This document shows, piece by piece, positions 1,254 to 56,116 of a DNA stretch of 64,000 nt. Both the position numbers and the translations under genes were made by a program. Source of the DNA: Bythopirellula goksoeyrii (GTDB lineage Bacteria > Planctomycetota > Planctomycetia > Pirellulales > Lacipirellulaceae); assembly GCF_008065115.1 (NCBI RefSeq), contig NZ_CP042913.1, forward strand, positions 2,702,338 to 2,766,337, written 5' to 3'. Position 1 is the stretch's first letter. Each line of letters starts with the position of its first letter. The notes beneath the pieces were generated by a model that was not told where the DNA came from, searched no databases, and saw nothing but the letters and a program-made list of their open reading frames with translations.

Positions 1254-1342
1254 AATGACCAATGTCCAATGACCAATGACCAAGAGCCATTGAGTTAGTT
1301 CTCCGGCTGATATTGGTCGTTGGAAATTGAAAATTGGTCATT
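1254..1342. repeat. Long-hairpin word repeat, GACCAAT type
   Basis: Arm 1 (1254-1283) repeats AATGACCAATG/TCCAATG. Arm 2 (1313-1342) is its approximate reverse complement built on TTGGTC. About 30 bp of imperfect pairing surround a 29-nt loop. The element lies in the 313-bp spacer between the start of the ASCH gene (minus strand) and tRNA-Gly. The rest of that spacer shows no convincing gene. It is the same word family as the element after ffh at 15440-15523. Confidence 0.75.
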
Positions 1343-1503
1343 TCCCGAACCGGCAAGTACCATTGGTTGTTTGGTGACTCATTCCCGGGGATTTTACCAC
1401 TCCGGGCAGGCCAAATCCCCTTGCGTACGCCAGAGGTGGGCCTATAATTCGGGAATCGTTACTGTGCCTCTCGGGCATTAGGCAGGGGGGTGCAGAACGG
1501 ACT

Positions 1504-1576
1504 GCGGGTGTAGCTCAGTTGGTAGAGCACAACGTTGCCAACGTTGTTGTCGTCGGTTCGAACCCGATCACCCGCT
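1504..1576 (+). tRNA. tRNA-Gly (GCC)
   Basis: A complete cloverleaf of 73 nt. Acceptor arms GCGGGTG and CACCCGC (1504-1510 with 1569-1575) pair fully, with discriminator T at 1576. The D-arm reads TAGCTCAGTTGGTAGAGCA. The anticodon arm is CAACG-TTGCCAA-CGTTG, giving anticodon GCC. The T-arm contains GTTCGAAC. CCA is not encoded. It lies 226 bp before trigger factor on the same strand. Confidence 0.97.
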
Positions 1577-1802
1577 CTAAGCACGAGTCCCGGCGAAAAA
1601 GCTGGCTGAAATCCAGCGAGTATCGCGGGACTGCCGATAGAGTTCGCTTCGAATTGGAGCCCGCCCCCGCTTTCTTGGCCTTCCACTTGGGGAGGCACAA
1701 TTGCTGGTAGCGGGTTCTTGGTTTTTTAGAAGATAAGTTTCTTGCCGCCGGACTACCCAAGTTGAGGTTTTCCAGGCGAGATTTTCGCAGAGAGAAAAGT
1801 CC

Positions 1803-3269
1803 ATGGCAGACGAAGAACAACAAGCAGATACGCTGACCGCTGAGGAAGATCAGCCACTCAACCTTCAGGTGGAGGTCACCAGTCCCAGCGATTGCGAACG
1901 TCACGTGACCGTGACCGTCTCACGCGAGGACATCGATCGTTATATGAACGATGCCTACAGTGAGCTGATGCCGAGCGCTAACGTACCGGGGTTCCGTATC
2001 GGTCGGGCTCCTCGCAAGTTGGTGGAAAGCAAGTTCAAAAAAGAAATCGCCGAGCAGATCAAGGGATCTTTGCTCATGGATAGCTTGACTCAGATTAGCG
2101 AGGAACAATCCTTTACCGCGATCAGCGAGCCCGATCTGAATCTCGATGCCGTGGAGGTCCCCGATGACGGGCCAATGACGTTTGAGTTCGACATCGAAGT
2201 TCGCCCTGAATTCGACATGCCGAAATGGAAGGGTGCAAAAATCGAGCGTCCTGTGCGTGATTTTACGCCCGCCGACGTCGATCAGCATTTGGAAAAGATG
2301 TTGGCTCGCTACGGACAACTTGTTCCTCACGAGGGGACTGCCGAGGAAGGGGACTACCTGACGGTCAATATCACGACCTCGTGCGATGGAAAACAACTCG
2401 AAAAAGAAGAAGAACACGTTCTGCGAATTCGTCAGAAGCTCAGCTTCCGCGATGGCGAAATCGCTGACTTCGCGAAACTGATGGGTGGTGCCAAGGCCGG
2501 GGACCACCGCAAGGTGGAGTTGGAACTTACCCAGGATGCTCCGAACGAATCCCTTCGCGGGAAAAAAATTAACGTGGACTTCGAAGTACTAGAAGTCAAG
2601 AAACTGAAGCTCCCCGAGTTGAACGAAGAATTTCTCGCGGAAATAGGGGACTTCAAGACCGAGGGCGACCTTCGCGACGCAATCGGCGACAGCCTCAAAC
2701 GGCAACTCGAGTATGAGCAGCAACAAAAAATCCGCTCCCAGATCTCCGCTCTGCTCACCAAATCGGCAGATTGGCAATTGCCGCCATCCTTGTTGAAACG
2801 ACAGAGTGCCCGGGAATTGGAACGCACCGTCATGGAATTACGCCGGGCTGGTTTCAATGAAGCTGAGATTCGTGCCCGTGAAAATGTCCTTCGTCAGAAC
2901 AGTGCCGCCTCAACAGCCCGCAGCCTGAAAGAACATTTCATTCTTGAGCGGATCGCTGAAGAAGAGAACATTGAAGCCCAAGAGGGCGATTTTGAGAAAG
3001 AAATCTTCTTGATTGCCATGCAGAGTGGCGAGTCGCCTCGTCGTGTGCGTGCCCAGATTGAGAAACGCGGCCTGATGGACGTATTGCAGAATCAGATCGT
3101 CGAGCGCAAGGTGCTTGAACTAGTGCAAGAACATGCCAAGTTTTCCGACAAACCCTTTGAGCCGGAGAATCTCGACGTCGAAGCAGTGAATCTAGCCGCC
3201 GGTGGTGGAGAAGGTCCCGCGTCTGCGAGCGAACCAGCACCAGAATCAACTGAGGCCACCGAAAGCTGA
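1803..3269 (+). CDS. tig: Trigger factor, ribosome-associated chaperone
   Basis: 488 residues; trigger factor binds nascent chains at the ribosomal exit tunnel and has peptidyl-prolyl isomerase activity. The ribosome-binding signature GFRIGRAP is at residues 63-70. A typical PPIase-like (FKBP) region follows at about 175-260, where GDYLTVNITT and GGAKAGDHRKVELEL are recognisable. The helical substrate-cradle domain runs from about 270 to 445. Both termini are longer than in E. coli: an acidic N-terminal stretch of about 20 residues and a low-complexity tail rich in A, E, P and S from about 450. It opens a tig-clpP-clpP cluster on one strand, an arrangement common in bacteria because newly made misfolded proteins are passed to the Clp protease. 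Confidence 0.95.
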   Translation: MADEEQQADTLTAEEDQPLNLQVEVTSPSDCERHVTVTVSREDIDRYMNDAYSELMPSANVPGFRIGRAPRKLVESKFKKEIAEQIKGSLLMDSLTQISEEQSFTAISEPDLNLDAVEVPDDGPMTFEFDIEVRPEFDMPKWKGAKIERPVRDFTPADVDQHLEKMLARYGQLVPHEGTAEEGDYLTVNITTSCDGKQLEKEEEHVLRIRQKLSFRDGEIADFAKLMGGAKAGDHRKVELELTQDAPNESLRGKKINVDFEVLEVKKLKLPELNEEFLAEIGDFKTEGDLRDAIGDSLKRQLEYEQQQKIRSQISALLTKSADWQLPPSLLKRQSARELERTVMELRRAGFNEAEIRARENVLRQNSAASTARSLKEHFILERIAEEENIEAQEGDFEKEIFLIAMQSGESPRRVRAQIEKRGLMDVLQNQIVERKVLELVQEHAKFSDKPFEPENLDVEAVNLAAGGGEGPASASEPAPESTEATES

Positions 3270-3381
3270 ACTATCACTTAAATGGATTGAGTTGTCGCCG
3301 TGAGGGGACGAGACGAGAATTGCCTTAGCGTCAATATCATCGGTTGACTGTCAGGAATAGGTTTCCAAAAAGGGAGTTGAT

Positions 3382-4032
3382 ATGAATTACGAAACGTCGG
3401 CCGAGAATTCCTTCGATCCTCGGTTTGCCGCTGCGATGCGCGACTACCAGCGTCAGCGTCAGATGACACTGGGCGATCTCTTGCTGGAAAACCGTGTGAT
3501 CTTTCTGCAGGGCGAAATCTACGATGGCAATGCCAATGAGCTTGTCATGAAACTGCTCTATTTGCAAAGCGAGAACCGTCGCAAGGATATCCATTTCTAC
3601 ATCAATTCGCCTGGTGGCAGTGTGAGTTCAACGCTTGCGATCTACGATACCATGCAGATGATTTCCCCTCCCGTGGCTACCTATTGCGTGGGGTTGGCTG
3701 CTAGTGGTGGCGCAGTTCTGCTCGCTGGTGGAGAAAAGGGAAAACGCTTCGCGCTCAAACATTCAAAAGTCATGATTCATCAGCCCCATGGCGGAGTGGG
3801 AGGCCAGGTCTCGGATATTGAGATCCAAGCCAATGAGATCATCCGCACTAGGGAAATCCTCAATGGCATCTTGGCTGAGCACACTGGCAAAACCATCGAA
3901 GAAATCCACAAAGCTTGTGATCGCGACCACTATATGACTGCTACTGAGGCCATGGAATACGGTGTCGTCGATGACATTCTTATTAAACAACCCGCACTAG
4001 GTGGAGAACCGGAAGACGACGATGACGATTGA
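3382..4032 (+). CDS. clpP: ATP-dependent Clp protease proteolytic subunit, copy 1
   Basis: 216 residues. Catalytic triad Ser108 (LAASGGA), His133 (MIHQP) and Asp182 (CDRDHYM); the spacing of 25 and 49 residues equals that of E. coli ClpP, so the peptidase should be active. The N-terminus is longer than usual and the C-terminus ends in a run of acidic residues (EPEDDDDD), absent from the second copy. The residue after the nucleophile is Gly rather than the usual Met (ASGG against ASMG in copy 2). A purine-rich AAAGGGAG precedes the ATG. It lies 112 bp after tig and 73 bp before the second clpP. The two may form a mixed tetradecamer, which is an inference. No clpX is present in the window. Confidence 0.95.
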   Translation: MNYETSAENSFDPRFAAAMRDYQRQRQMTLGDLLLENRVIFLQGEIYDGNANELVMKLLYLQSENRRKDIHFYINSPGGSVSSTLAIYDTMQMISPPVATYCVGLAASGGAVLLAGGEKGKRFALKHSKVMIHQPHGGVGGQVSDIEIQANEIIRTREILNGILAEHTGKTIEEIHKACDRDHYMTATEAMEYGVVDDILIKQPALGGEPEDDDDD

Positions 4033-4105
4033 GTCAGGTAACTCAGCCAACGTTGCTCGATAAAAATCTTTCGCATTCGTCCCCCCAACCAATGGATTGC
4101 CCGTC

Positions 4106-4693
4106 ATGTCGCTAGTTCCCTTTGTCATCGAAAAATCAGGCCGCGAAGAGCGGGCCATGGACATCTACAGCCGTTTGCTCAAGGACCGCATTGTCCTGAT
4201 GGGCTCCGCTGTGAACGACGATGTTGCCAACAGCATTGTGGCTCAATTGCTGTTTCTTCAGTCCGATGATCCCAAGGCAGATATCCACTACTACATTAAC
4301 TCCCCTGGGGGCAGTGTCACTGCTGGAATGGCTATCTATGACACCATGCAGTTTGTCACTTGTGATGTAGCTACTTATTGCCTGGGCCAAGCAGCCTCTA
4401 TGGGGGCCTTGCTCTTGGCTGCTGGCGCTGCTGGCAAACGGCATGCCCTGCCAAACTCCCGTATCATGATTCATCAGCCTTCTGCCGGAATGGAAGGCAC
4501 CGCCGAGGATATCATGATCCATGCGACCGAGTACCGCAAAACCAAAGACAAGCTCAACCGCATCTTGATCGAGCACACGGGCCAGACCCTCGAGCAAATC
4601 GAGCGAGATACCGACCGCGACCATTTCATGTCCGCAGCCGACGCCTGCGAATATCGAATCATCGATAAAGTCATCGAGAAAATGGAAATGTAG
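4106..4693 (+). CDS. clpP: ATP-dependent Clp protease proteolytic subunit, copy 2
   Basis: 195 residues from the ATG at 4106. An in-frame TTG at 4097 would add three residues, but neither start has a strong ribosome binding site and the ATG gives the usual family length. Triad Ser98 (GQAASMGA), His123 (MIHQP) and Asp172 (TDRDHFM), again with canonical spacing. This copy is closer to the standard ClpP sequence than copy 1. The INSPGGSV segment, which helps form the oxyanion hole, is present in both. It is the last gene of the tig-clpP-clpP run, followed by a hairpin-forming repeat rather than by clpX. Confidence 0.95.
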
Positions 4694-4732
4694 GATGGGA
4701 GAACGCATGTAGGGGCAACATTGCAGCGATTT

Positions 4733-4856
4733 AATGGCGAATGACGGAAATACCCAAGCACGAAAGAATGACTAAAAACAAGTGCCCTACAAGGGGCCAG
4801 CTTTAGTCATTCGTATTTCCGACTTCTTTCGTCATTGGGTATTTCATCATTCGTCA
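4733..4856. repeat. Long-hairpin word repeat, GAATGACGAAATACC type
   Basis: Arm 1 (4733-4774) carries GAATGACGGAAATACCCAAG then CACGAAAGAATGACTA. Arm 2 (4804-4856) carries the reverse-complement words TAGTCATTCGTATTTCCGAC, TTTCGTCATTGGGTATTTC and ATTCGTCA. It begins 40 bp after the second clpP stop and fills much of the 346-bp spacer before the next gene. The rest of that spacer is pyrimidine-rich (4857-4910) and shows no gene. Confidence 0.7.
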
Positions 4857-5039
4857 GTTCCCCCTAATCTCTCCCCTTCCTTCAGGCCTCCTCCCCCTGC
4901 TAGCATCTTCGATCTCGCTTGACGGTGCCTACCGGTTTTCTTATTTCATACCTCCCAAATGGCTTCGGCGGGGTACGTGCGCAACGGCTCTACTGGTTGC
5001 CTGAAATCTCTTTTCCCTGAGTAAGAGTCGAGCTGAGTG

Positions 5040-6437
5040 ATGCCAACAGCGAACGATACAACAGGTTTCAACTTGAACAGGCGCCTTTACCCTGCGCTGC
5101 TGTTGGGCACTTTGATGGCCTCGTTGTTTGCGACCTCAGGCTGTCGTTCGACGCGTGACAATCAGATCGATATCCTGGAACGGGAACTACGTGCCCAGGA
5201 AGATTATATCTACGAGCTGGAGGACTATGTCGTCGAGTATTCCGACAAATTGCGGCAATGCCGTTGTTCTCAGCCACACGTGGCATCCGTGACCAAACCC
5301 ACTCCTGCACCCAAGCAAACTTCGAAGTCCAACACAAGACAATCTACACAATCTACAGTCGAGAAGAAACCTGCACGGAGAACTCTACAGGAACCTCGTG
5401 AGGAATCCATCCTAGATTCAGTCGAACCTGCCTCGGAGCCTGCAGTCGAGTCAGAAGTCCCTGTCGAAGAACTTGAAGTCCCTGAATTGGATTTGGAAAT
5501 CGGCGAACCGATTAGTTCTGACGAAGAGCATGAAGCTGCAATCCTGGCAGATTCCGAGGGCATCGAACACGAACAAGACCCTAATACTATTAGAATCCCC
5601 AATCCGGTAGCCTATCAGACCGCCGGCTATGATGAGTTGGAAGAATCCACGGATATTCCTTTCGAAGTAGAAACGTTGGAGAATCTCGACGACACCGAGG
5701 CTGTCGCCGAAGCAGAAACGCAGAGTCCGTCTGTCCGCAAGGCAGAACGACTCGTCATCGCTTACGTTTTCCGCGATTCCACCGAGTCGCCAAAACCAAG
5801 TAGCTTGCTTTCGGTTATTGAAGCGCGAGATTCCAGAAATGAGCCTGCTGCCTTCGATGGCAAAGTTTCGCTGATGGTAATGCAGGGAGACCCTGAAGCG
5901 CCAACTCGTATTAAGCGGTGGGATTTCACCGAGGAAGAAACTGCTGCAGCGTGGCAGACTTCACAATTTGGCGACGGCCTTCACTTGGAGCTGCCGTTGG
6001 AAGACACTCAGCTTCCTGAAGGTCCTTTCGAATTATGGGTCCGCCTGGAGTCGGCAGATGGTGGCAAACTGCTCTCCCAGATCCCCATGGAGGCCCAAAC
6101 TCTCGCCACCATGGAAGATGTTGATGTCGAGCAGATGGCAGACGGAGCTTTGGAGTCTCCACTGGGGGAAACAGAAGAAGCAGAAATCGCCAGCATTAAT
6201 CCATTGCGTTCTGGAAACAAGAAAAGCGTTTCCACGACGCCCCTGGCATCAGTAGACTCGGCTTCGAAAGCCGAGCCTCAGTGGCGTGCCGCTACCCACT
6301 TCAGCTCGGGTGCGAATTCCGGATTCTCTACAACTGCCACTGAGAAAAAGTGGAACATTAGCACAACTCCAATCCCGCGCGATTCCCAGCCAGCTTCCAC
6401 AACCGCTGGCAAGCAGCGGTGGACCTCGCGCCGATAA
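5040..6437 (+). CDS. Hypothetical lipoprotein with N-terminal coiled coil
   Basis: 465 residues from the ATG at 5040 (a GTG directly before it is in frame). Residues 15-37 form a lipoprotein signal peptide with lipobox TSGC. Just after the acylated Cys lies a heptad-rich segment (IDILERELRAQEDYIYELED) that should form a short coiled coil. The middle, about residues 80-220, is low complexity and rich in Glu, Pro, Ser and Thr. About residues 235-345 read as a compact beta-rich domain (LVIAYVFRDSTE, FDGKVSLMVMQGD, PFELWVRLESADGG). The tail is Ser/Thr-rich. The overall design suggests an envelope-anchored protein whose globular domain is held away from the membrane by a flexible linker. Function is unknown. 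Confidence 0.7.
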   Translation: MPTANDTTGFNLNRRLYPALLLGTLMASLFATSGCRSTRDNQIDILERELRAQEDYIYELEDYVVEYSDKLRQCRCSQPHVASVTKPTPAPKQTSKSNTRQSTQSTVEKKPARRTLQEPREESILDSVEPASEPAVESEVPVEELEVPELDLEIGEPISSDEEHEAAILADSEGIEHEQDPNTIRIPNPVAYQTAGYDELEESTDIPFEVETLENLDDTEAVAEAETQSPSVRKAERLVIAYVFRDSTESPKPSSLLSVIEARDSRNEPAAFDGKVSLMVMQGDPEAPTRIKRWDFTEEETAAAWQTSQFGDGLHLELPLEDTQLPEGPFELWVRLESADGGKLLSQIPMEAQTLATMEDVDVEQMADGALESPLGETEEAEIASINPLRSGNKKSVSTTPLASVDSASKAEPQWRAATHFSSGANSGFSTTATEKKWNISTTPIPRDSQPASTTAGKQRWTSRR

Positions 6438-6585
6438 TGCCTTGCCATGCAGATTCCGTGTCACTCGAAACGGAGTCGTTTGAGTGACCCCTTGTAGATT
6501 TTCCCATCGTTGGCTGGTATTATCCGTCGGTAAGCTTTTTCTCACTGTTCCTGAGCAAACTTCCGCTGTACGAGGAGATCTCTTC

Positions 6586-8076: not shown

Positions 8077-8108
8077 CATTGTCTGTTTGACAACAACAGA
8101 TAAACGAA

Positions 8109-8142
8109 AAAAGCCTCGTCCCGATCTCGGAACGAGGCTTTT
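8109..8142. terminator. Bidirectional intrinsic terminator
   Basis: Perfect 11-bp stem AAAAGCCTCGT / ACGAGGCTTTT with a 12-nt loop. It is flanked by an A-run on the left and a T-run on the right, so it can work in both directions. It lies between the convergent exported-protein gene and GAPDH. Confidence 0.9.
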
Positions 8143-8164
8143 ATTTTGAGAGCTGCTTAATCGA

Positions 8165-13581: not shown

Positions 13582-13772
13582 TGCAATGCCTGCTTTGCGT
13601 GTGCGACAAGAGGGCGGGAGCTTGGGGCATGATGCGCGCAGAAGGTCCCCTACTGGACTCTTGGTTTTGAAATTGGGGTTGTCTAGCGAGGAAGGTCGTT
13701 TGGGGCTTGTTCCCAGCGAATCGCGAAATAAGTTTGCCAGTCCTAGCGGTAATACTGGAAAAGAGATTTGTC

Positions 13773-13837
13773 ATCCCCGCGCAGGCGGGGACCCGGGACC
13801 GAGTATGTTTCATAGGGGTCCCCCCCTGCGCGGGGAT
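13773..13837. repeat. REP-like inverted repeat
   Basis: Two arms, ATCCCCGCGCAGGCGGGGAC (13773-13792) and its near reverse complement GTCCCCCCCTGCGCGGGGAT (13818-13837), separated by about 25 nt. The word is of the CCCCGCGCAGGCGGGGA type seen in REP elements of other phyla. It sits in the 378-bp spacer between the divergent ATPase and ffh genes. A smaller hairpin (CCCCCGCGCTCGGGGG) lies at about 13903-13918. No gene is seen in the spacer. Confidence 0.65.
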
Positions 13838-13959
13838 AACGGGCAAGTTGCAGGATTTCACATCTCCGCCGAATCCGTTAGAATTCGAGATTCACGCCCA
13901 TTCCCCCGCGCTCGGGGGGGTGAGCAGTCACGAACTACATCCCACTAGCGGTACCACTT

Positions 13960-15444
13960 ATGTTTGAAGCCCTCCAAGATGGTCTGACCTCTGCGTTCAA
14001 GACGCTCCGAGGCAAGGGCAAACTCTCCGAAGCCAACATGCGCGACGGCCTGAAGCTGGTCGAGAAATCGTTGCTCGAAGCGGACGTGAGCTTCCCGGTC
14101 GTCCGGCAATTCATGGCCGATGTGACCGAGCAAGCCGTCGGCGAGAAGGTGCTCAAATCGCTCGATCCCAGCCAGCAGGTCGTGGGCCTCATTTACCAGG
14201 AACTGGTAAACATGATGGGGCCGGTCGACAATTCGCTTCATCTCCTTGGCAAAGACCAGGTAACCGTATTGATGATGTGCGGGCTGCAAGGTTCCGGGAA
14301 GACGACCACCTGCGGCAAGCTGGGCCGGATGCTCAAAGAGTCGGGTCGCAAACCGCTCATGGTGGCCGCTGACTTGCAGCGACCTGCGGCGATCGACCAA
14401 CTGCATGTAATTGGCGAGCAACTAGGGATCGAAGTTTTTTCGGATCGTGGCCAGAAGGACCCCGTCACGGTTTGCAACGAAGCACTCAAGCAGGCAAAGA
14501 AACTGGGTGCCGACGTTGTGATTCTTGACACAGCTGGTCGATTGCATGTCGACGACGAATTGATGGGCCAGCTGCAGCGAATCGACCGCCAGTGCAATCC
14601 GCATCAGGCGTACTTGGTCGTCGACGGCATGACTGGTCAGGATGCGGTCAATAGCGCCAAGGCGTTCAACGAAGCCTTGGAACTCGATGGCGTGATTCTC
14701 ACGAAGATGGATGGCGATGCCCGTGGTGGGGCGGCGATTTCAGTGAAGCATGTTACCGGCGTACCGATCAAGTTCATCGGCACCGGCGAGCACCTGGATG
14801 CCCTGGAGGAATTCCACGCAGACCGGATGGCAGGCCGCATTCTGGGTCAAGGCGATATTATGACCCTTGTCGAAAAAGCCCAACGCGAATTCGACCAGGA
14901 CGAAATGCTCCGCCAGGAAGAGCGGATGAAGAAAGGCGAGTTCACACTCGACGATTTCAAATCGCAACTGAGCCAAATCAAAAAGCTCGGCCCGTTGCAA
15001 AAAGTGATGGGCATGATTCCTGGCATGAGCGGCATGAAGGATGCTATGGGCGACATGGATCCCGAGCAGGACATGAAGCGGCTATTTGGGATTATCGATT
15101 CGATGACGGCTGACGAACGGCGGAATCCAACCAAGACGATCGACCAAAGTCGCCGCCGCCGGATCGCCGCCGGCTCGGGCGTCGAGCCCCACGAAGTGAA
15201 TGAATTGGTTAAGCAATTCGACGTGATGGCCACCATGATGACCCAACTTGCCGGCAAGGGGATGCGGGAACGGATGAAGATGATGCGGCAAATGCAGTCG
15301 GAGATGACCAATCCCAATGCCCAGCTTGCGAAGAAGAAGCAACCCACCGGTAAGCGGCTTTCGCCGGCAGAGAAGGCCAAGCTCAAAAAAGAGCGAGAAA
15401 AAGAGATGCGTCGTAAGAAAAGAGAGCAGCGGGGGAGAAAATGA
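13960..15444 (+). CDS. ffh: Signal recognition particle protein Ffh
   Basis: 494 residues; binds signal peptides and 4.5S RNA and delivers ribosomes to FtsY at the membrane. NG domain: N-terminal helices, P-loop GLQGSGKTT starting at residue 108, DTAGRL and [10 protein letters not shown] motifs. The C-terminal M domain (from about 320) is Met-rich ([39 protein letters not shown]), as needed for signal peptide binding. It ends in a strongly basic Lys/Arg tail. It leads the ffh-rpsP-trmD-rplS run. Its TGA stop lies inside the first arm of a hairpin repeat. Confidence 0.97.
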
Positions 15445-15523
15445 CCAATTCCCAATGAACAATGACCAATTTTGGGCTGCGAATCAAATCCTTTTGGTCA
15501 TTGGTCATTCGACATTGGTCATT
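15440..15523. repeat. Long-hairpin word repeat, GACCAAT type, overlapping the ffh stop
   Basis: Arm 1 (15440-15473) contains GACCAATT and AATGACCAATTTT. Arm 2 (15492-15523) is TTTTGGTCATTGGTCATT followed by CGACATTGGTCATT. The TGA of ffh (15442-15444) lies within arm 1. The element fills the first 80 bp of the ffh-rpsP spacer and uses the same word as the copy at 1254-1342. Confidence 0.8.
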
Positions 15524-15655
15524 TCCCCTCTTACCCCTTGTCAGACACCCCCCAAATCTGGCAGAATTGTGGGTTTCCAGCAGCGAGAGCGGCCCCAACG
15601 GTCGCTAATCAATATTTCAGTTTGATGTAGTCAAAGATCAGGCGAGGAGAACTTA

Positions 15656-16176: not shown

Positions 16177-16258
16177 AGGTGGAGTAGGTGAGTGAGTGAG
16201 AAGGTATGTATGTGGAATTTGACCACTCACCTATTCACTTACTCACCTACTCACCTCA
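16177..16258. repeat. Long-hairpin word repeat, GGTGAGT type
   Basis: Arm 1 (16177-16205) is AGGTGGAGTAGGTGAGTGAG then TGAGAAGGT. Arm 2 (16222-16258) repeats CACTCACCTA/TTCACTTACTCACC. It begins 6 bp after the rpsP stop and ends 6 bp before the trmD start, so it occupies nearly the whole spacer. Confidence 0.8.
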
Positions 16259-16974: not shown

Positions 16975-17043
16975 GGCAATTAGCGGTTAGCTTTTAGCCA
17001 GACTTGAATCCACTAACGGCTAATAGCTAACAGCTAACAGCTA
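16975..17043. repeat. Long-hairpin word repeat, TTAGCTG type
   Basis: Arm 1 (16975-17000) is GGCAATTAGCGGTTAGC then TTTTAGCCA. Arm 2 (17014-17043) is TAACGGCTAATAGC followed by TAACAGCTAACAGCTA. The element fills most of the trmD-rplS spacer and ends 18 bp before the rplS start, so the rplS leader begins with a hairpin. The same word occurs at 56047-56116. Confidence 0.8.
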
Positions 17044-27690: not shown

Positions 27691-27777
27691 TTAGCCACGG
27701 ATGAAACACGGATTGTCACGGATTTGATTGAGGCTCCAATTCTTATCCGTGTTTGATCCGTGTCGATCCGTGGCTAA
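27691..27777. repeat. Long-hairpin word repeat, CACGGAT type
   Basis: Arm 1 (27691-27723): TTAGCCACGGATGAAACACG followed by GATTGTCACGGAT. Arm 2 (27745-27777): ATCCGTGTTTGATCCGTG then TCGATCCGTGGCTAA. Both arms are 33 nt and each holds three copies of CACGGAT or its complement, phased 9-12 nt apart. It lies just beyond the stop codon of the DEAD-box helicase gene (minus strand). Confidence 0.85.
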
Positions 27778-47950: not shown

Positions 47951-47998
47951 CTATTTGCACAGTTCCGCGGTGCGTTGGCGAAGAGGTAAGAAATGGTC

Positions 47999-48152
47999 TG
48001 CAGATGAACGCGGATCTAGCGGATTAGCGCGGACTCATTCCCCACCAATTCAGACACCTGTTTCGATTGGTTTTGCTGATGACACCTATCTGAGCCAACC
48101 CAGATCATTCAGATCCGTGAAAATCCGCCCAATCAGCGTTCATCCGTGTTCT
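47999..48152. repeat. Long-hairpin word repeat, CGCGGAT type
   Basis: Arm 1 (47999-48041): CTGCAGATGAACGCGGAT, then CTAGCGGATTAGCGCGGACT. Arm 2 (48110-48152): AGATCCGTGAAAATCCGCCC followed by AATCAGCGTTCATCCGTG. Words are GCGGAT and its complement, with an unpaired interval of 68 nt. It starts 48 bp upstream of the RND exporter start and ends 7 bp from the nuoD stop. Confidence 0.8.
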
Positions 48153-48158
48153 ATATTC

Positions 48159-49364
48159 TTAGCGATCGATTTCACCCATCACAATATCCAGCGAACCCAC
48201 GATGGCTGGCACATCGGCAATCAAGCAGCCTGCACACAAGGGGCCGGTGACCGATAGATTGCAGAAGGAGCTGCTGCGTGCACGCGTCCGCCAGGGTATC
48301 GGGGAACCGTCGCTAACGAGATAGAAACCCATCTGTCCGCGTGGTGCTTCCGTTTCGAGGTAGGCCTCACCCACAGGGAGTTTCTGGTTGAGTTTCACAG
48401 GTTCGCCATAATTGCCGGTTGCTGTGCTGTAGTATTCGATCGCCTGGCGGACCAAATCGATGGATTGAATTACTTCAAGCATCCGCACATAGAATCGATG
48501 CCAACAATCGCCAAGTACTGCATCAGAGGGTATTTGGGGATATTTGTGGTCTTTGGGGTAGTGCCCATTTTTCTCAACGATCACCTCAAAGGCGTAACCT
48601 TCGTACATGGCAGTATAGATTTCCTCGCCATCTCGCCGGAGGTCATGGTCCACACCACTTCCTCGAAGTACCGGCCCACTCGTGCCATAGCTAATTGCCA
48701 TCTCCGGCGAGAGAAGGCCGATCCCGGCTGCTCGCTTGACGAAAATCGCATTGGTTGTCAACAACGTGTGGTATTCAGCAATAAGCGGCTCGAACTGATC
48801 CAGGAATGCCGAGCATTTTTCTAGCCAACCCGGTGGCAAGTCAGCAGTTGCCCCTCCGACAGTCAAATAGCTGTAGGTAAGTCTTGCGCCACACGCCTCT
48901 TCAAAAAGATCAAGAATCTTCTCGCGCTCGCGAAAGGCATATAGAAACGGGCTGAAGGACCCGAGGTCCAAGCCATAAGCACCCATGCCAACAAGATGGC
49001 TGGCGATGCGCCCCATTTCGCTAATGATCACCCGCAAGTGACGTCCCTTCTCGGGTGGCTCATACTTCATTAACTTCTCGACAGCCAGTGACCAGCCGAG
49101 ATTCATATTCATGCCCGCGAGATAGTCCATCCGGTCGGTGTAGGGAATCCACTGCCGTGGGGTTAGGTTCTCTCCAATTTTCTCAGCACACCGATGTAAG
49201 TAGCCGATGTGCGGAGTAACCTCGGAGACGATTTCACCGTCGGTACGAAGCACCAGCCGCAACACCCCATGCGTACTCGGGTGCTGAGGACCCATATTCA
49301 CCAACATCTCGTCGGTGCGAACATCAAATTCAATGACCCGAGGGTCGTCGATAGTAGCGGTCAT
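48159..49364 (-). CDS. nuoD: NADH-quinone oxidoreductase subunit D
   Basis: 401 residues. Corresponds to the 49-kDa subunit of complex I, which forms part of the quinone-binding site in the peripheral arm. Signatures: NMGPQHPSTHGVLRLVL, GYLHRCAEKIGE, GRIASHLVGMGAYGLDLG, GPVLRGSGVDHDLRRD, and a C-terminal ADVPAIVGSLDIVMGEIDR. Length is normal. It is the last gene of the nuoI-A-C-D cluster; 18 bp separate it from nuoC. Confidence 0.97.
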   Translation of the reverse strand: MTATIDDPRVIEFDVRTDEMLVNMGPQHPSTHGVLRLVLRTDGEIVSEVTPHIGYLHRCAEKIGENLTPRQWIPYTDRMDYLAGMNMNLGWSLAVEKLMKYEPPEKGRHLRVIISEMGRIASHLVGMGAYGLDLGSFSPFLYAFREREKILDLFEEACGARLTYSYLTVGGATADLPPGWLEKCSAFLDQFEPLIAEYHTLLTTNAIFVKRAAGIGLLSPEMAISYGTSGPVLRGSGVDHDLRRDGEEIYTAMYEGYAFEVIVEKNGHYPKDHKYPQIPSDAVLGDCWHRFYVRMLEVIQSIDLVRQAIEYYSTATGNYGEPVKLNQKLPVGEAYLETEAPRGQMGFYLVSDGSPIPWRTRARSSSFCNLSVTGPLCAGCLIADVPAIVGSLDIVMGEIDR

Positions 49365-49382
49365 ATATTTTCCGTGGCAGGA

Positions 49383-49913: not shown

Positions 49914-50001
49914 GGTTTCATCACAGAGAGAGTGTTGAGGATATTTGTAATACTATCGCCGACAAATTGGGGGAGCAGCAAACTCTAAGGGCCGAAATAT
50001 T

Positions 50002-50631: not shown

Positions 50632-50693
50632 AATTACTGTTTAATTTCTAAATTAGCCGCGATCGCGATACTGTGCGTCGCAGAGTTCAGCGT

Positions 50694-51242
50694 TTATTGA
50701 TTCGGACCACCATGTACCGGCTCGGTGATCACCTTGGACTGGGCTACCGCCGTCGGATTGAGCGACGATCTGCCCCAAGCCACGTCAAGTGGCAAGCGAG
50801 AGAAATCGACAACACATCCATCCCGGCTATAACAACTCAAATCGTGAGTACCTCCCATGAAAATACAATCCACAGGACATGGTTCTACGCACAACGCGCA
50901 AAACATGCATTTGGTATAGTCGATTGCGTAGCCAGTAATCTTAAAGCCTTTGCCTCCCTCGACTTTTTCTTTGCCGATGTAAATACAATCGACTGGACAT
51001 GCCTTCGCACATTGATCGCACGAAATGCAGGTTGTCAGATCAAAGCGATGGAAGCCCCGATAGCGAGCTGCTACTGGCACCGGCAATTCGGGGTATTCAA
51101 AATGTTCGGTGAATGTCTTTCGATCTGGGCGGTAAGTCTTGAACCAGGTTCGCAACGTTACCCACATTCCGTCGGCAACAGTATACACCGCCTCAAAAAC
51201 GTTTCCCAACCATGGCCAGACTCGTTTGAGTCCCTGGATCAT
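50694..51242 (-). CDS. nuoI: NADH-quinone oxidoreductase subunit I
   Basis: 182 residues from the ATG at 51242, supported by an AAGG eight bases upstream; an in-frame start at 51287 would add 15. Two 4Fe-4S motifs: [19 protein letters not shown] and [20 protein letters not shown], each CxxCxxCxxxCP. These are clusters N6a and N6b, which pass electrons towards the quinone. The N-terminal part ([20 protein letters not shown]) is typical. It is first in the nuoI-A-C-D cluster, an order different from the usual A-B-C-D and so on. Confidence 0.95.
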
Positions 51243-52073
51243 AATTTGCCTTGATCCTCTCCGTTGAATGTCAACCAGCGGTCTCAATGGTAATGAGCAA
51301 CTGCTGCTAGCTTCGTTTAATCAAATGTGCGAAACCTGAATTATAGAACGACTTCCTAACGTCGCAACCGCTAGAAAGCGCGATTTATTCAGCAGGTCAT
51401 GACCTCTAGAGTAGAGCGAGTCCGAGTGAGAATTAAGCGGCTACCAAAGTGGTGCCCGGATAGAGAAATGAACTGACAATTCGACATGGCATAGACTACC
51501 CGCGTGGCATGACAAACGGATGCTGGAATCGGTTACTGCTTGGTCTCGGCACATCCCCCCAGAGCATGGGGCATGCCAGAATTCCTCTTGCGTCCAAAGT
51601 CCAGGAAGAATGCGAGCGAAATCGGGGCCATAAATCAAAAAAAACTTCACAATTTCTAATACTAGCTTCAGTCTGGTGAAAGTTATCAATCGCTGGGATT
51701 GGGATAATTGACAATTCTGGTCCAGAGTAATGTATGGATATAAGTTCCTTTATAGTAATAGTTTACGGAGATCTTAGTGTGGTCCCGGTTGGGGCGGCAT
51801 GCCGAATTCCTTGCTTTTCACACTGAATGGGCGTCAAATTGCATGCCAATTCCCTTCGTTCAGACCGAAATGCCGAGCTTGTGCCCTATCCGATTGCTTG
51901 ACTACGGTCAATCACCACGTAGAGTGGATTACAGGGACTTCACTTGAAGTTCCGCCCGTTTGCGGAAATCCACCTCGTATTTTGACCTTCGGAATTTTGC
52001 AAACAACAACTCGGGGGCCGCGCCGATTTTATCTAAGGTGAAATGAAGGCTCCTGTTACGAAGGAATCGACCC
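51243..52073. other. 831-bp intergenic region
   Basis: Divergent space between nuoI (minus) and csrA (plus). The part from 51600 to 51780 is AT-rich and a likely place for promoters, for example TTGACA at about 51707. Several frames of 60-80 codons exist but have no ribosome binding site or family resemblance. I see no gene or RNA. Confidence 0.4.
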
Positions 52074-52307
52074 ATGCTGGTTTTATCTCGAAAAAAGAAT
52101 GAGAGTATCGTTATCAACGACGACATCACGATCGTGGTCGTTGAGATTCGCGGCGACAAAGTTCGTTTAGGCGTTGAAGCTCCTAAAGAAGTTCCAGTGC
52201 ATCGTAATGAAGTCTACGAAGCAATTCGCCGTAATTTGCCCGTCTCAAACGATACCGCTAATAATGAAGAACCAGCCGAGCGCGATTCTCTCAATTCTGC
52301 TGAGTAA
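52074..52307 (+). CDS. csrA: Carbon storage regulator CsrA
   Basis: 77 residues. RNA-binding global regulator that binds GGA motifs in mRNA leaders. Recognised from [39 protein letters not shown] and [13 protein letters not shown]. The C-terminal tail (residues 60-77, Asn/Glu/Ser-rich) is an addition beyond the standard 60 or so residues. AAGGAATCG precedes the ATG. It stands alone after a long leader region. Confidence 0.96.
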
Positions 52308-52516
52308 TTCCGTAGCCTAGGCTCAAGGCCTGCGATGACAGCTAGGGCGCTTCGGCGGTTTTCCGGGTAAAGATGGCTTCCCCGCTTCTACTCTCCCACT
52401 TGACGTCCGCCGACGATTATCTTACCTGTATAGTCCCACAGCGTAAGTGCGTGTGGCGACAAGCAGCCTGTCAATCATCCCTCCAGCTTCAAGTTGGCCG
52501 AGATGTTATTGATATC

Positions 52517-52588
52517 GGCCCCTTCGTCTAGTGGTTAGGACACCGGCCTTTCACGCCGGCAACGCGGGTTCGAGCCCCGCAGGGGTCA
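52517..52588 (+). tRNA. tRNA-Glu (TTC)
   Basis: 72 nt. Acceptor arms GGCCCCT and AGGGGTC (with one G-T pair), discriminator A at 52588. The anticodon arm is CCGGC-CTTTCAC-GCCGG, giving anticodon TTC. The T-arm has GGTTCGAGCC. CCA is not encoded. It lies between csrA and argC. Confidence 0.97.
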
Positions 52589-52775
52589 TTACATTATCTC
52601 TACAAGCCATTCTGCTTCATAGTAGCAAGAAAGCGGACGGCACACGGAGTGTGCCTGCTCCGTTCCCACATTGCTGAACCCATGGCGGGCGACTTCTGTC
52701 GTTTGTATACTCAAAAGGCTGTGCCCGCAGCGTAGGAAACCTACCTTCACCCTCCAGAGATTTAGGCCAAACTAG

Positions 52776-53786
52776 ATGATCAGAGTGGCAATCCTTGGTG
52801 CTACCGGCTATACCGCCCGGGAATTGTTGGAGCTATTGCTCCGGCATCCCGAAGTGGAGGTCACTGCGCTGGGAACCCGCCAAGAGGATCGCCCCCACCT
52901 TGCAAATGTGCATCCGGCCCTTCGAGGTCGCATTGATCTGTGCCTAGAGAATCTTTCGCCTGCCGAAGTAGCCGAGAGGGCCGACTGTGTCTTCGGCTGC
53001 TTGCCCCATGGTGCTAGTGCAGAAGTCATCGCGGAACTATTGGACAACGACTGCCGGGTAATCGACTTTAGTGCGGACTATCGATTGAATGATCCCGACG
53101 TCTATGAGAAATGGTATCAGGTGAAGCACCCCGATCCCAAGCGGATGGGAAAGACGGCGTATGGGTTACCGGAGTTGTTCCGTGATCAGATTCGCGGAGC
53201 CGACTTGGTAGCGAATCCCGGCTGCTATCCCACCGCTGCGATTTTAGCCTTAGCGCCCTTGCTGAGAGCCGGCAAGGTCAATCCGCAAGGAATAGTTATT
53301 GACGCCAAGAGTGGCGTCACCGGTGCTGGACGCTCGCCCAAAGCACACCTTCATTTCCCCGAGATCAACGAGAATCTCATGCCATATGGTGTCGGCACGC
53401 ATCGCCACACTCCCGAGATCGATCAGATCCTCAGCACTTGGGCGGAAGTGGAAACCAATGTGGTATTCACACCACACTTGATCCCAATGGATCGCGGAGA
53501 GCTGATCACTGCATATGCCGATGTGACTCCCGGCACCACGGAAAATCAGTTGCGGGAAACTTTGCAAGAATTTTACAAGGATGAACCTTTCGTCCGCATC
53601 GTTGATCATCTACCGGGTACAAAGGATGTTGCCCACACCAATTTTTGCGATGTGACGGTGCGTGTTGTCGGCAGCAAAGCGGTGATCATTGGCGCGATTG
53701 ACAATTTGATCAAAGGGGCGTCCGGGGCGGCAGTACAGAATTTCAACGTGGTTTACGGCTTCAAAGAAACAATGGCCTTGCTTTAG
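52776..53786 (+). CDS. argC: N-acetyl-gamma-glutamyl-phosphate reductase
   Basis: 336 residues. Reduces N-acetylglutamyl phosphate to the semialdehyde in arginine synthesis, using NADPH. N-terminal Rossmann motif [20 protein letters not shown]. The catalytic Cys150 is in [17 protein letters not shown]. The later [20 protein letters not shown] and [19 protein letters not shown] complete the match. Length normal. It is followed after 62 bp by argJ. Confidence 0.97.
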
Positions 53787-53848
53787 GGCGTTCGCTATGT
53801 CCCTTCAGAATAGTTGATTGACAATCTGAGTTTTCGGTGGATGGCACT

Positions 53849-55042
53849 ATGGCAGAGAAACTACCCAAGGGTTACCGAGCGGCTGGCGTCTACACGGGCG
53901 TCAAGAGAAACCCCACCAAAAAAGATCTCTCGCTGTTCATCTCAGATCGCCCCGCGATTGCTGTAGGTGTCTACACGCAAAACTTGGTCGTGGCGGCACC
54001 AGTCAAGTTGTGTCAGTCCAGGACCCCCGCAAAGTCTATTCTGGCCGTTGTGGCCAACTCAGGTGTGGCCAATGCCTGCACCGGAGAGCAAGGCGATAAA
54101 GATGCGCTTTTCATGGCCGCCAAGACGGCCCAAACATGTGGAGTCGACCCCGAGCAAGTATTGGTCATGTCGACAGGTGTAATCGGCGAGATGCTGCCGA
54201 TGGACAAAATTTCAGCCGGCATCGACGAGGCCTTTCCGTTGCTCAACACCGATGAGCAATCACTCGTCGATGCAGCTCGCGGGATTCTAACGACCGACAC
54301 TGTCCACAAGATCAAGACTCGGGAGTTTGAGATCGACGGTGTGCAGATTTGCATCACCGGTGTCGCCAAAGGTGCAGCCATGATAGGACCCAACCTGGCT
54401 ACGATGCTGGCCCTGATCCTGACCGATGCGAATATCAGCGCCGACGATGCCGACGCCGGCCTCAAGGACGCCGCCGATGAATCATTCAATTGCATTAGCG
54501 TCGACGGCCACACGAGTACCAATGATACGGTTCTCTTGTTAGCCAACGGGTCAGCAGGTGGCCCCCAACTCTCTGGACCTGCCTTGGCTAAGTTCCAAGC
54601 GACTCTGGTCGAGGTTTGTGAAGACCTGGCCCAATCCATTCCGGCTGATGGCGAGGGGGCATCCCATCTAATTACGGTTGAAGTTCACGGCTGCCAAACA
54701 CGCAGGGATGCCGTCAAAATCGCCAAAACCGTTGCTGACAGCACTTTGGTCAAGACAGCGATTGCCGGGAATGACCCCAACTGGGGACGCATTGTCTCCG
54801 CAGCGGGCTACGCTGGTATAGAGTTTGATCCTGCCAAGGTGAGTCTCCTGGTCAATGGCATGTTGCTATACGATCAAGGCCAACCGGTGAAGTTCGACGA
54901 AGCTGCTGTTTCCGAGTCCATGCGCTCCCAACGCGATACGGGCATTGTGCTCTTGATGGATGGAGGGGAAGCCTCGGCACGATTTTGGACCACCGATCTC
55001 ACTGCGGAATACGTTCGACTTAACGCCGACTACCATACCTGA
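53849..55042 (+). CDS. argJ: Glutamate N-acetyltransferase / amino-acid acetyltransferase
   Basis: 397 residues from the ATG at 53849 (a GTG at 53837 is in frame). Transfers acetyl from N-acetylornithine to glutamate, closing the cyclic arginine pathway; the protein autocleaves at a Thr. The cleavage motif GAAMIGPNLATMLALILTDA places nucleophile Thr185. LPKGYRAAGVYTGVKR at the start and AIAGNDPNWGRIVSAAGYAG later are diagnostic. The stop overlaps the start of the potassium-channel gene by 1 bp. Confidence 0.97.
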   Translation: MAEKLPKGYRAAGVYTGVKRNPTKKDLSLFISDRPAIAVGVYTQNLVVAAPVKLCQSRTPAKSILAVVANSGVANACTGEQGDKDALFMAAKTAQTCGVDPEQVLVMSTGVIGEMLPMDKISAGIDEAFPLLNTDEQSLVDAARGILTTDTVHKIKTREFEIDGVQICITGVAKGAAMIGPNLATMLALILTDANISADDADAGLKDAADESFNCISVDGHTSTNDTVLLLANGSAGGPQLSGPALAKFQATLVEVCEDLAQSIPADGEGASHLITVEVHGCQTRRDAVKIAKTVADSTLVKTAIAGNDPNWGRIVSAAGYAGIEFDPAKVSLLVNGMLLYDQGQPVKFDEAAVSESMRSQRDTGIVLLMDGGEASARFWTTDLTAEYVRLNADYHT

Positions 55043-56067
55043 TGAACCCAGCCCTGAATCGAGCCAGACGCGGTGCCCTGTTTCTTGGCCTCGTTTGCAT
55101 TACCTCGATTCTTTCCTACCATCTGTGGTTCAACAAGCCGCTTCTTGAATCCATCTACTGGACTGTCATCACGGTGGCGGGAGTTGGTTACTCACAGAGC
55201 CCTGAGCCAGATGTCGGATCAGCCCGGCAATTTCTCTCGATTATCGTTATCGTCTTCGGCATGGTGTCGATGGCGTATACCCTTGCCATGTTCATTCAGG
55301 CGATCGTCGAAGGCCAAATCGACCGCGCCCTGGGAGCCAATCGCATGCTCAAGCGAATCGACAAATTGGAAAACCATGTCATCATCTGCGGCTTTGGTCG
55401 GGTGGGACAGAATCTAAGTCACCGCCTGGCTCGACACAATGTGCCTTTTCTGATTATAGACCCCAGTGCGGACTGCCTTGCCGAGGCACGGGCCCAAAAG
55501 TTTCTTACGCTCGAGGGCTTGGCGACCGAGGAAGACGTATTGGTAGCCGCGGGAATCGAACGCGCCAAAACGATCGTCATCTCCGTCAGCAGCGATGCCG
55601 AGAGCGTGTTTTTGACCCTCACCGCGCGAAACATGAACCCTTCGATCCACATTCTTGCCCGGGGTGAACATCCCCAAACAGAAAAGAAGCTACTTCAAGC
55701 TGGTGCGAACGAGGTCATCCTGCCAGCTGTGATCGGTGCCGAGCGCATGGCAGAAAAGATCGTCAATCCAAGCGCTGCGGAGCCGTTTAGATTCAGCGAC
55801 CACTACTCGGGTCTGAATGCCGAACTCGATGAATTCCAATTCACAGCCGAGAGCCCCTTTGTTGGTCAAACTATCGGCGCGGCCGAATCGCAGCACCAAG
55901 CCATGATCGTCGCCCTGCGCAAGGCCACTGGCGAAACCGTGTTCAATCCTGCCAACGAGGAGATTCTGTACCCAGGAGACACCGTCGTCGTCATGGGCCC
56001 CGAAGCCGATCTAGAGAAGTTCTACGAAACCTGTGTCGAAGAGAGGCAGTTAGCTGTTAGCTATTAG
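55042..56067 (+). CDS. Two-helix K+ channel with RCK domains
   Basis: 341 residues. TM1 (about 12-29), pore loop (about 35-50) and TM2 (about 60-85), followed by an RCK_N domain (IICGFGRVGQNLSHRLARH, near residue 115) and an RCK_C domain (about 255-335). The MthK-like plan is clear. The filter region is TVITVAGVGYSQ (residues 41-52): the usual T-V-G-Y-G-D reads G-V-G-Y-S-Q here. RCK domains bind nucleotides or ions and control gating. The last six residues and the TAG stop are encoded by the repeat at 56047-56116. The ATG overlaps the argJ stop. Confidence 0.88.
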   Translation: MNPALNRARRGALFLGLVCITSILSYHLWFNKPLLESIYWTVITVAGVGYSQSPEPDVGSARQFLSIIVIVFGMVSMAYTLAMFIQAIVEGQIDRALGANRMLKRIDKLENHVIICGFGRVGQNLSHRLARHNVPFLIIDPSADCLAEARAQKFLTLEGLATEEDVLVAAGIERAKTIVISVSSDAESVFLTLTARNMNPSIHILARGEHPQTEKKLLQAGANEVILPAVIGAERMAEKIVNPSAAEPFRFSDHYSGLNAELDEFQFTAESPFVGQTIGAAESQHQAMIVALRKATGETVFNPANEEILYPGDTVVVMGPEADLEKFYETCVEERQLAVSY

Positions 56068-56116
56068 CAAGAGTTGGATTTCACTAAAAGCTAACTGCTA
56101 ATCGCTAACAGCTTTT
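56047..56116. repeat. Long-hairpin word repeat, TTAGCTG type, containing the channel gene stop
   Basis: Arm 1 (56047-56070) is CAGTTAGCTGTTAGC then TATTAGCAA. Arm 2 (56086-56116) is AAAAGCTAACTGC then TAATCGCTAACAGCTTTT. It supplies the last six codons and the stop of the channel gene and ends at the first base of the cobL stop on the other strand, so it fills the whole convergent gap. Confidence 0.85.

Follow-up and report, generated by a model that had tools for sequence, protein, structure and literature searches.

Intergenic hairpins with word-built arms in Bythopirellula goksoeyrii as probable gene-less members of two classes of small dispersed elements

Eight hairpins in a stretch of the Bythopirellula goksoeyrii genome (NZ_CP042913.1, positions 2,702,338-2,766,337 of the forward strand; 64,000 nt, hereafter the window) are probably miniature, gene-less members of dispersed mobile families that fall into two protein classes (Table 1). 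Long forms with the same arms carry one small gene, whose product is either PF05635, the 23S-rRNA intervening-sequence (four-helix-bundle) protein, or PF13366, the GxxExxY PD-(D/E)XK protein. This interpretation builds on the observed arms, the ORFs enclosed by them, the link between word period and protein, the dispersal of arms over loci, and the presence or absence of elements in sister species. The words shared with long forms suggest that the window elements descended from them.

Table 1. Hairpins with word-built arms in the window. Bracketed numbers are labels used in the text where they differ from the first position; shuffles are those folding equally well.
Element	Positions	Strand	Period and remarks	Inverted arms	RNA folding z	Shuffles
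ATTGGTC/GACCAAT hairpin	1254..1342	.	period 7; class of PF05635 long forms, by its words	1254-1342	-7.2	0/200
GAATGAC/GAAATACC hairpin	4733..4856	.	period 7-8	4747-4845	-9.3	0/200
ATTGGTC hairpin 3' of ffh	15439..15524 (15440)	.	period class 7-8 nt	15439-15524	-5.6	0/200
GTGAGTAG hairpin, rpsP-trmD spacer	16177..16256 (16182)	.	period 8	16182-16252	-7.9	0/200
TTAGCTG/CTAACAG hairpin, trmD-rplS spacer	16975..17043	.	period 7	16980-17037	-5.4	0/200
CACGGAT hairpin	27691..27777	.	period ~10; class of GxxExxY long forms, by its words	27696-27762	-8.8	0/200
CGCGGAT hairpin	47987..48161 (47999)	.	period 10; full 46-nt family arms	48003-48144	-5.8	0/200
TTAGCTG hairpin	56047..56116	.	between two convergent stop codons	56052-56113	-3.4	2/200

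All eight hairpins listed by an earlier note on this DNA are present, and each folds better than its shuffled versions. The inverted arms were detected by a repeat search, those of 16975 by a separate inverted-repeat scan. The hairpins are located in spacers or at the edges of protein or tRNA genes and none is inside an rRNA gene; the only Rfam matches in the window were two tRNAs, with none to an rRNA. The window itself contains no PF05635/S23p gene, which was seen only in the related long forms. A sample of the same genome, comprising the window and 60 pieces of 20 kb (1.264 Mb), contained 75 ungapped inverted repeats scoring ≥16 as against 0 in one shuffled copy. Periodic arms (p≤0.01) occurred in 16 of its 69 gapped hairpins scoring ≥31, where 0.7 would be expected. 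Five of these 16 are window elements (1254, 15440, 16182, 47999, 56047), while 4733, 16975 and 27691 failed to clear both cuts, 4733 lying below the periodicity cut. A strict tandem-array scan, which misses degenerate arms, gave nine intergenic arrays in the 1.264 Mb. The earlier note saw one architecture with words of 7-9 bp: the shared design holds, but the single word range resolves into two period classes, 7-8 nt in six elements and about 10 nt in 27691 and 47999. The recurrence of word families that it described, 1254 with 15440 and 16975 with 56047, was confirmed.

In the long forms, which span about 450-550 nt, tandem words of 7-10 nt make up one arm, followed by a small ORF and the inverted arm. 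In the discovery cases, PF05635 (E 1.2e-13) is encoded between ATTGGTC arms at locus L083, and PF13366 between CGCGGAT arms at L008 (E 2.2e-38) and between CGCAGAG arms at L062 (E 9e-36). A tblastn search of the sequence sampled up to that point with these three proteins found five genes, namely the three themselves, L063 and L209, and inverted flanks scoring ≥40 were present at 5/5, compared with 1.4% of 1500 random places. Three arm pairs, picked by eye, had been fixed before the family search (G254:C12:103505-103980, G052:C127:7836-8315 and G030:C1:312646-313100), and PF05635 scored above the cut-off inside 3/3. With arms called paired at ≤1/200 shuffles, inverted arms accompanied 34/35 PF05635-type and 10/14 GxxExxY genes from several phyla (22/22 and 4/8 on plasmids, 6/6 and 4/4 in genomes, 6/7 and 2/2 in viral contigs), counts that are not independent because L083, L008 and L062 are the discovery cases and H25-H27, H18/H20/H23 and L278/L279 are near copies. 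The plasmid GxxExxY genes without arms come from Sphingomonas, Persicobacter, Treponema and Fusobacteria, and one of the seven viral-contig PF05635-type genes lacked arms as well. Among 592 random small ORFs, drawn from ORFs beyond small intergenic genes too, 25 had paired arms; six were both paired and periodic, one of the six being itself a PF05635 gene. Genome G040 has four PF05635 genes, yet its hairpins are few (16 per 400 kb, one periodic).

The word period followed the protein family. Over all sets, the best period was 7 nt at 32/34 armed PF05635-type genes as against 0/10 armed GxxExxY genes, which had a best period of 8-10 nt in 10/10. Within the plasmids and genomes alone, period 7 was found at 26/28 and 0/8, respectively (Fisher 1.5e-6). 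Some arms failed a blind periodicity test: those of the L008 GxxExxY gene (p 0.22), L062 (0.35), the L008 PF05635 gene (0.47), H19 (0.16) and H22 (0.26).

When the window arms were compared with long-form arms of the class predicted from their period, 0/200 shuffles matched as well for 6/8 elements, and 1/200 and 3/200 for the other two. The top word match of 1254 was the PF05635 element at L083 (0/200), whose words 4733 also matched (0/200), albeit with a modest score (27). The words of the rpsP-trmD hairpin also border a PF05635 gene at L009 16414-16725 in the window's own genome. Both TTAGCTG hairpins matched the long form L057 weakly, 16975 at 1/200 and 56047 at 3/200. The top match of 27691 was the L008 GxxExxY arms (0/200), and similar words border GxxExxY in L282; the arms of 47987..48161 matched the GxxExxY element L008 2654-3201 (0/200). 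By their words, six elements would fit the PF05635 class, two of the six weakly, and two the GxxExxY class.

The earlier note attributed the elements to slippage copying of a short word followed by inverted duplication, adding that some mobility or copying between loci was likely. The second part is strongly supported, as the elements are dispersed and keep a fixed order of word variants. In the first family, units at the same position in different loci had an identity of 0.83, compared with 0.748 within an arm and 0.744 for different positions and loci; a second test, from which CTAACAG was left out and to which CGCAGAG contributed one arm only, gave 0.898 between loci versus 0.747 within an arm (0/200 permutations). 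Since same-numbered units across loci are more alike than neighbours in an arm, the hairpins were not simply made by slippage in place, and in the two families so examined, slippage with inverted duplication at each locus is unsupported as the process that generates elements at present. A fully local origin, by polymerase slippage on a word and template switching in place with no mobile parent, is largely refuted for these two families and seems to us improbable overall. It would suit the pure (AATGACC)n runs at a few loci, the unit gradient TTAGTGG-TCAGTGG-GTGAGTGG at L152 and the different words carried by orthologous spacers of other genera, and slippage does seem to act as a secondary process. 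Against it, besides the unit positions, the same two protein families are enclosed by the arms, and the same arm variants recur in other families and beyond the class: a planctomycete from a class other than that of the window has 46 occurrences of one 28-nt arm (≤2 mismatches).

Arms of two types can be joined in one element. By hand count, an AAGCACC-type and an AAATCCC-type arm were joined in 10/13 close arm pairs of genome G254. In the CGCGGAT family, 22 pairs comprised 9 mixed, 9 with both arms A, 1 with both B and 3 unclear, and two distinct arm types per element are not the rule there. The 22 CGCGGAT elements gave no sign of target-site duplication (2.14 versus a null of 2.04 ± 0.20; 0/22 of ≥6 nt). 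The nhmmer seeds ACTCACC, CACGGAT and GTTGTCCG returned no matches, nor did plasmid blastn with the bare ATTGGTC and CGCGGAT hairpins. A viral-contig scan found none with the ATTGGTC arm and 15 contigs with the CGCAGAG run.

Comparison of orthologous spacers for gain or loss, as the earlier note proposed, showed that, at several sites, one of two sister species carries an element that the other lacks. The 1254 hairpin is absent in the sister-species genome G004, 47987..48161 is absent at the corresponding G004 site, and 56047 is missing from G004 as well as from four other genomes of the same genus. By eye, a degenerate ATTGGTC-like stretch follows, in G004, the stop codon that corresponds to that at the 4733 site, and a CGCGGAT-type remnant stands in the 27691 spacer. 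The right arm of the 15439 hairpin is retained there upstream of rpsP, ffh being about 75 kb distant; the words of 16177..16256 were also found, and those of 16975 in a diverged form. An apparent heptamer indel at 16975 between G000 and G004 was a by-eye impression unsupported by alignment. In genome G008, the gene that ends in 47987..48161 has a CGCGGAT hairpin (L126 516-659) at a distance of about 150 nt. The spread of word-armed elements is patchy (2/199 phylum-wide genomes, the window genome counted).

REP/REPIN elements mobilised by RAYT (Y1) transposases would also be dispersed hairpins, and the genome has 15 Y1_Tnp matches with hairpins in their flanks. The word elements likewise follow stop codons without target duplications, and word-family stretches occur in the 5-kb surroundings of 4/15 Y1 loci (L153, L154, L158, L163). 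However, paired arms directly at Y1 genes, found at 12/26, were periodic in only 1/26 and belonged to other families, and word arms border PF05635/GxxExxY genes instead. As word repeats do not directly flank Y1 genes, we judged RAYT a very unlikely mover.

Seven of the eight window hairpins either overlap a stop codon or start at most about 40 nt from one. The ffh stop codon (15442-15444) is inside the first word of its hairpin, that of the minus-strand gene 48159-49364 in the right end of 47987..48161, and the stop (56065-56067) of ORF 55042-56067 is provided by 56047. The exception, 1254, is flanked by the start side of ORF 876-1190(-) on one side and a tRNA at 1504 on the other. In samples from three genomes, 19/32 placed periodic hairpins were ≤30 nt from a stop, as against 32% under random placement (p=0.0015), and ordinary hairpins were so at 50/76 against a null of 33%, hairpins inside crude ORF calls being left out (32/64 periodic, 112/188 ordinary). 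Ordinary hairpins being near stops at least as often, the proximity that the earlier note had put forward is real, yet not special to the word-armed elements. An excess of stop codons in inward-reading arms of this genome (92 versus 51, sign p 0.08) was suggestive only. Transcription terminators or 3'-end stabilisers selected gene by gene, with incidental words, would explain strong stems close to stop codons but have a very slim chance, given at most four consecutive T in the 20 nt past the stems checked, and so no U run, their lack from the same sister-species spacers at 3/8 sites, their family-wise dispersal and the ORF in the long forms.

MITEs are short, non-coding, dispersed inverted-repeat elements. 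REPINs, too, are described as short non-coding inverted-repeat elements with many dispersed copies (PMC3116915, available part). The elements here differ from both in that no target duplication was found (CGCGGAT elements), no known transposase is involved and the arms are word arrays. They resemble classic MITEs in having terminal inverted repeats in common with a coding parent (L083, L008, L009), whose protein is PF05635 or GxxExxY and no known transposase.

Comparable kinds of heptamer array are the cyanobacterial STRRs and the TAACTGA repeats. The TAACTGA arrays of Beggiatoaceae, cyanobacteria and Bacteroidetes are patchy across phyla, with 7-nt indels between strains; unlike the present arms, they are direct repeats, in Beggiatoaceae mostly just 5' of start codons, and the available part of the paper describes no ORF link (PMC4679880). 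The GGGAATC heptamer arrays of Xanthomonas, similar in Nostoc, are mostly intergenic; two species have 186 and 183 repeat patterns, and 70 and 75 cases of close inverted site pairs. The arrays lie close behind the 5' neighbouring ORF and mostly at the same gene pairs in sister species, where their length and sequence vary (PMC4692102, available part). They share with our elements the inverted pairing of intergenic heptamer arrays, but form one word family, treated as G-quadruplex repeats, with no coding parent described in that part. In Geobacter metallireducens, by contrast, opposite-strand sites made of four octamers or five heptamers in tandem were read as binding sites of a global regulator (PMC2700814, available part). 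Inverted heptamer-array pairs have thus been published, although the earlier note knew of no formal description; the link to a gene is absent from the available parts of these two papers. Open full-text literature, as far as available, did not connect word arrays with GxxExxY or, outside rRNA, with PF05635, and six word-array sequences were not found there as text strings. The term GxxExxY appears a single time each in 2 of the 5.39 million papers covered, one use being a passing mention.

The Coxiella 23S rRNA intervening sequence (IVS) is a stem-loop called selfish, with complementary ends, an S23p-family ORF and a patchy spread; tandem GACAGAT heptamers of strain-variable number stand just before the ORF, and the RNase III site is at the first of them (PMC4990558, available part). 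The window hairpins likewise form a stem from complementary ends, and PF05635/S23p is coded by the related period-7 long forms. Whereas IVSs lie within rRNA genes, the window-type elements are intergenic, in many copies and mostly without an ORF, and a second class has the GxxExxY protein instead.

We propose that class 1 would comprise arms of period 7 (sometimes 8) around the PF05635 protein, and class 2 arms of period 8-10 around the GxxExxY protein (PF13366). Once the ORF is gone, the arms would persist as a hairpin, roughly 60-160 nt long, and copies of it would go on being made around the genome, the gene-less hairpin being to the long form what a MITE is to its parent. The protein would recognise its own periodic stem, and copying might be performed by the protein itself or by a nuclease or reverse transcriptase in trans; we know of no enzyme for the PF05635 class. 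The stem may be tolerated at gene 3' ends because, when transcribed, it can supply stop codons and may be a substrate for RNase III, whose cleavage of rRNA intervening sequences has been reported.

More broadly, we see an even chance that these elements represent a class of tiny mobile elements that crosses phyla and pairs one small protein with a stem of set period. The arms would be the protein's recognition site, a regular binding ladder; the rRNA IVS would be a special instance, inserted into rRNA, and many of the intergenic heptamer arrays that lack an explanation would be gene-less remains. The word period is predicted to tell the protein family, which is testable in all genomes. Such a class would tie together three puzzles: what the intergenic heptamer arrays of several phyla are, how rRNA IVSs arose and spread, and what two families of small orphan proteins do.

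All eight intergenic hairpins described in the earlier note proved real. They lie in the single-contig, 6,473,141-bp genome of this planctomycete (G000), whose nearest named relative among the genomes compared is Bythopirellula polymerisocia Pla144 (G004; TrmD 93%). The window elements are gene-less. A few arm pairs are spaced by about 450-550 nt, and such long forms enclose one small ORF. When the arms of each window element were scored against those of ten long forms, the best-matching class agreed with the word period for all eight. By eye, the CACGGAT arms of the GxxExxY contig L282 also closely resembled those of 27691.

Word-armed hairpins and other repeats, in window coordinates unless a locus is named; for the eight elements, the comparison with G004 was by eye
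Feature	Word period or description	Best-matching long form	Stop codon supplied to neighbouring gene	Site in G004
1254	7-8 nt	L083 (PF05635)		no element
4733	7-8 nt	L083 (PF05635), weaker		degenerate stretch, different word family
15439	7-8 nt	L083 (PF05635)	15442-15444	right arm retained
16177	7-8 nt	L009 (PF05635), same genome		retained, same words, altered form
16975	7-8 nt	L057 (PF05635), weak		retained, same words, altered form; no heptamer indel on alignment
27691	about 10 nt	L008 (GxxExxY)		degenerate stretch, different word family
47987	about 10 nt	L008 (GxxExxY)	48159-48161	no element
56047	7-8 nt	L057 (PF05635), weak	56065-56067	no element
13770-13840	GTCATCCCCGCGCAGGCGGGGACCC hairpin, REP-like			
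about 57466-57531	GTTAGCCGCGACGCG repeat			dispersed in genome
59754-59830	perfect 28-bp hairpin CGAGCCGTAAGTGTAAACGCCCGGAG, REP-type			
L126 516-659 (G008)	CGCGGAT hairpin			
L152 985-1077	long tandem array			

In the long form L083 from genome G014, ATTGGTC arms surround a 127-aa protein of PF05635, a four-helix-bundle family presumably related to Avd from diversity-generating retroelements. This protein had one solved-sequence match, 2rld. L008 (CGCGGAT arms) and L062 (CGCAGAG arms) each enclose a GxxExxY (PF13366) protein. A tblastn search with these three proteins against the loci collected by then returned five genes, namely the queries, L063 and L209, all between inverted arms; as high a score occurred at 1.4% of 1500 random places. 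Furthermore, three arm-pair positions, chosen by eye among AATGACCAATGACCAAGCMCCAATGACC matches in genomes G254, G052 and G030, were recorded ahead of the PF05635 family search, which found a match above cut-off within each of the three. The alignment of eight GxxExxY proteins revealed one invariant D and one invariant K, with E or D two residues ahead of the K, the pattern expected for a PD-(D/E)XK nuclease site. Its family name and this motif make the GxxExxY protein a putative nuclease.

The association extends to other phyla. We scored all 30 matches listed by two plasmid searches (28 records; three further places were left out). Arms flanked 22/22 PF05635-type genes, and 20 of these pairs were periodic (p<=0.05). 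The genes come from Cyanobacteriota, Chloroflexota, Bacteroidota and Spirochaetota, and their arm words include TAATTCG, AAGTCGC, AATTCGC, AATCCCC and GTGACCA; the type was assigned by tblastn, and 19 of the 22 are annotated as four helix bundle protein and three as hypothetical. Four of eight plasmid GxxExxY genes were armed, with CGCAGAG words in Gemmatirosa, CACAGAG in Bernardetia and Bacteroides, and ACAAAT-like words in Prevotella. Genomic genes were armed in 6/6 PF05635-type (five periodic) and 4/4 GxxExxY cases (two periodic), or 5/5 and 2/2 excluding the discovery cases L083, L008 and L062. In a viral collection, seven of 17 pattern stretches encode PF05635-type relatives and two of 17 encode GxxExxY relatives, with arms at six and both, respectively. 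As controls, 25 of 592 random ORFs of 100-170 aa, intergenic or not, were paired, six of these periodically, including the PF05635 gene of L057, and 12/26 Y1_Tnp genes were paired, one periodically. The best period was 7 for 26/28 armed PF05635-type versus 0/8 armed GxxExxY genes (Fisher 1.5e-6), or 32/34 versus 0/10 with the viral-collection contigs, a tally that also counts genes whose period is individually non-significant; near copies among plasmids make the arm and period counts less independent than they appear.

On Nostoc and Anabaena plasmids (L249, L251), cas2 and cas1 flank the PF05635-type element, and on two Nostoc plasmids (L252, L262) XisH and/or XisI genes are located just past it; XisH/XisI are noted in genomes with TAACTGA repeats (MacGregor 2015, PMC4679880). 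The element comes right after a helicase-type gene on plasmids L250, L254, L256, L270 and L271; the annotation of this gene is DrmD on two of them, and on three a methylase or restriction gene follows.

Within the phylum, the AATGACCAATGACCAAGCMCCAATGACC arm (<=2 mismatches, genome-wide) occurred 54 times in G052, 51 in G030, 46 in G254, 30 in G024, 27 in G016, 9 in G017, 3 in G135, 2 in G046, once in G000 and not in G004. G254 belongs to the window's phylum but lies outside its class. By hand count, ten of its 13 close arm pairs join an AAGCACC-type to an AAATCCC-type arm, two are alike and one has a pure run. Pure four-word runs were less frequent (G024 22, G254 17, the other eight genomes <=6 each), many being the AATGACCAATGACCAAGCMCCAATGACC arm caught within 2 mismatches. 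In a 199-genome draw across the phylum, matches occurred in G000 and G254 only; reversed-pattern controls gave zero for all three counts. TTGGTCATTGGTCA was present in 21/59 relatives, where the reversed pattern matched once, in one genome.

In the two families compared, word-armed hairpins appear to be copied, not made in place. The earlier note had proposed copying between loci, which the unit comparison bears out: units at the same position agreed across loci at 0.83 for CGCGGAT (52 arms) and 0.898 for ATTGGTC, the latter reached by 0/200 ordinal permutations. Its other proposal, slippage copying of a word and then inverted duplication, finds no support in these two families: within-arm agreement was 0.748 and 0.747, against 0.744 and 0.748 for different positions across loci. 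The 53 CGCGGAT arms come from two samples, 1.264 Mb of G000 and 183 kb of G004, where the stretches were partly chosen for such matches only in the latter; the ATTGGTC test used 21 of 30 arms, with units 1-2 biased by the discovery method for most loci and unit 3 unbiased. The CGCGGAT arms are of two types, A and B, and 22 hairpin pairs divided into nine mixed, nine A+A, one B+B and three unclear. No target duplication was detected for 22 CGCGGAT elements.

In the by-eye comparison with the sister species G004, three elements are absent, two are kept, one is partial, and two spacers hold degenerate stretches of other word families. The right arm of 15439 is retained, yet ffh lies about 75 kb off, so that a rearrangement breakpoint lies at the element or close to it. 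The G008 hairpin lies about 150 nt from the gene adjoining 47987. A by-eye survey of rpsP-trmD or trmD-rplS spacers at 30 loci, including the window's own and G004, found different-word arrays in other genera at L094, L098, L100, L105, L113, L114 and L116, and none in the stretch viewed of the remaining loci.

Other repeats were also observed. Hairpins very similar to CGAGCCGTAAGTGTAAACGCCCGGAG flank a Y1 (RAYT) transposase gene on both sides at L158, a family similar to GTTAGCCGCGACGCG surrounds a Y1 gene at L160, and hairpins similar to GTCATCCCCGCGCAGGCGGGGACCC occur elsewhere in the genome sample. The L152 array grades from TTAGTGG through TCAGTGG to GTGAGTGG and looks like local slippage. 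CGCGGAT elements are dense in the G004 stretches L135 and, above all, L136; in L135 they adjoin different word arrays, e.g. TTAGTGG. Periodic-hairpin arms held more stop codons when read inward than outward, 92 versus 51 (G000), 117 versus 78 (G030) and 48 versus 28 (G023) in the samples, non-significant by sign test in each genome.

The word-array design and rRNA intervening sequences are already published. In the full-text literature searched, subscription papers being outside the search, we found no joining of arrays to intervening sequences, GxxExxY class, period rule or miniature families. Beyond the architecture, enclosed genes, dispersal and presence or absence observed here, the GxxExxY class may be copied by its own protein, and the PF05635 class perhaps by a trans-acting nuclease or reverse transcriptase. 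In Coxiella, the rRNA intervening sequence is excised by RNase III and carries tandem heptamers at the cut site ahead of the ORF (PMC4990558). Given this precedent and the three elements that supply a neighbour's stop codon, the window elements may be tolerated much as the Coxiella sequence is, and stems close to gene ends could be cut harmlessly by RNase III.
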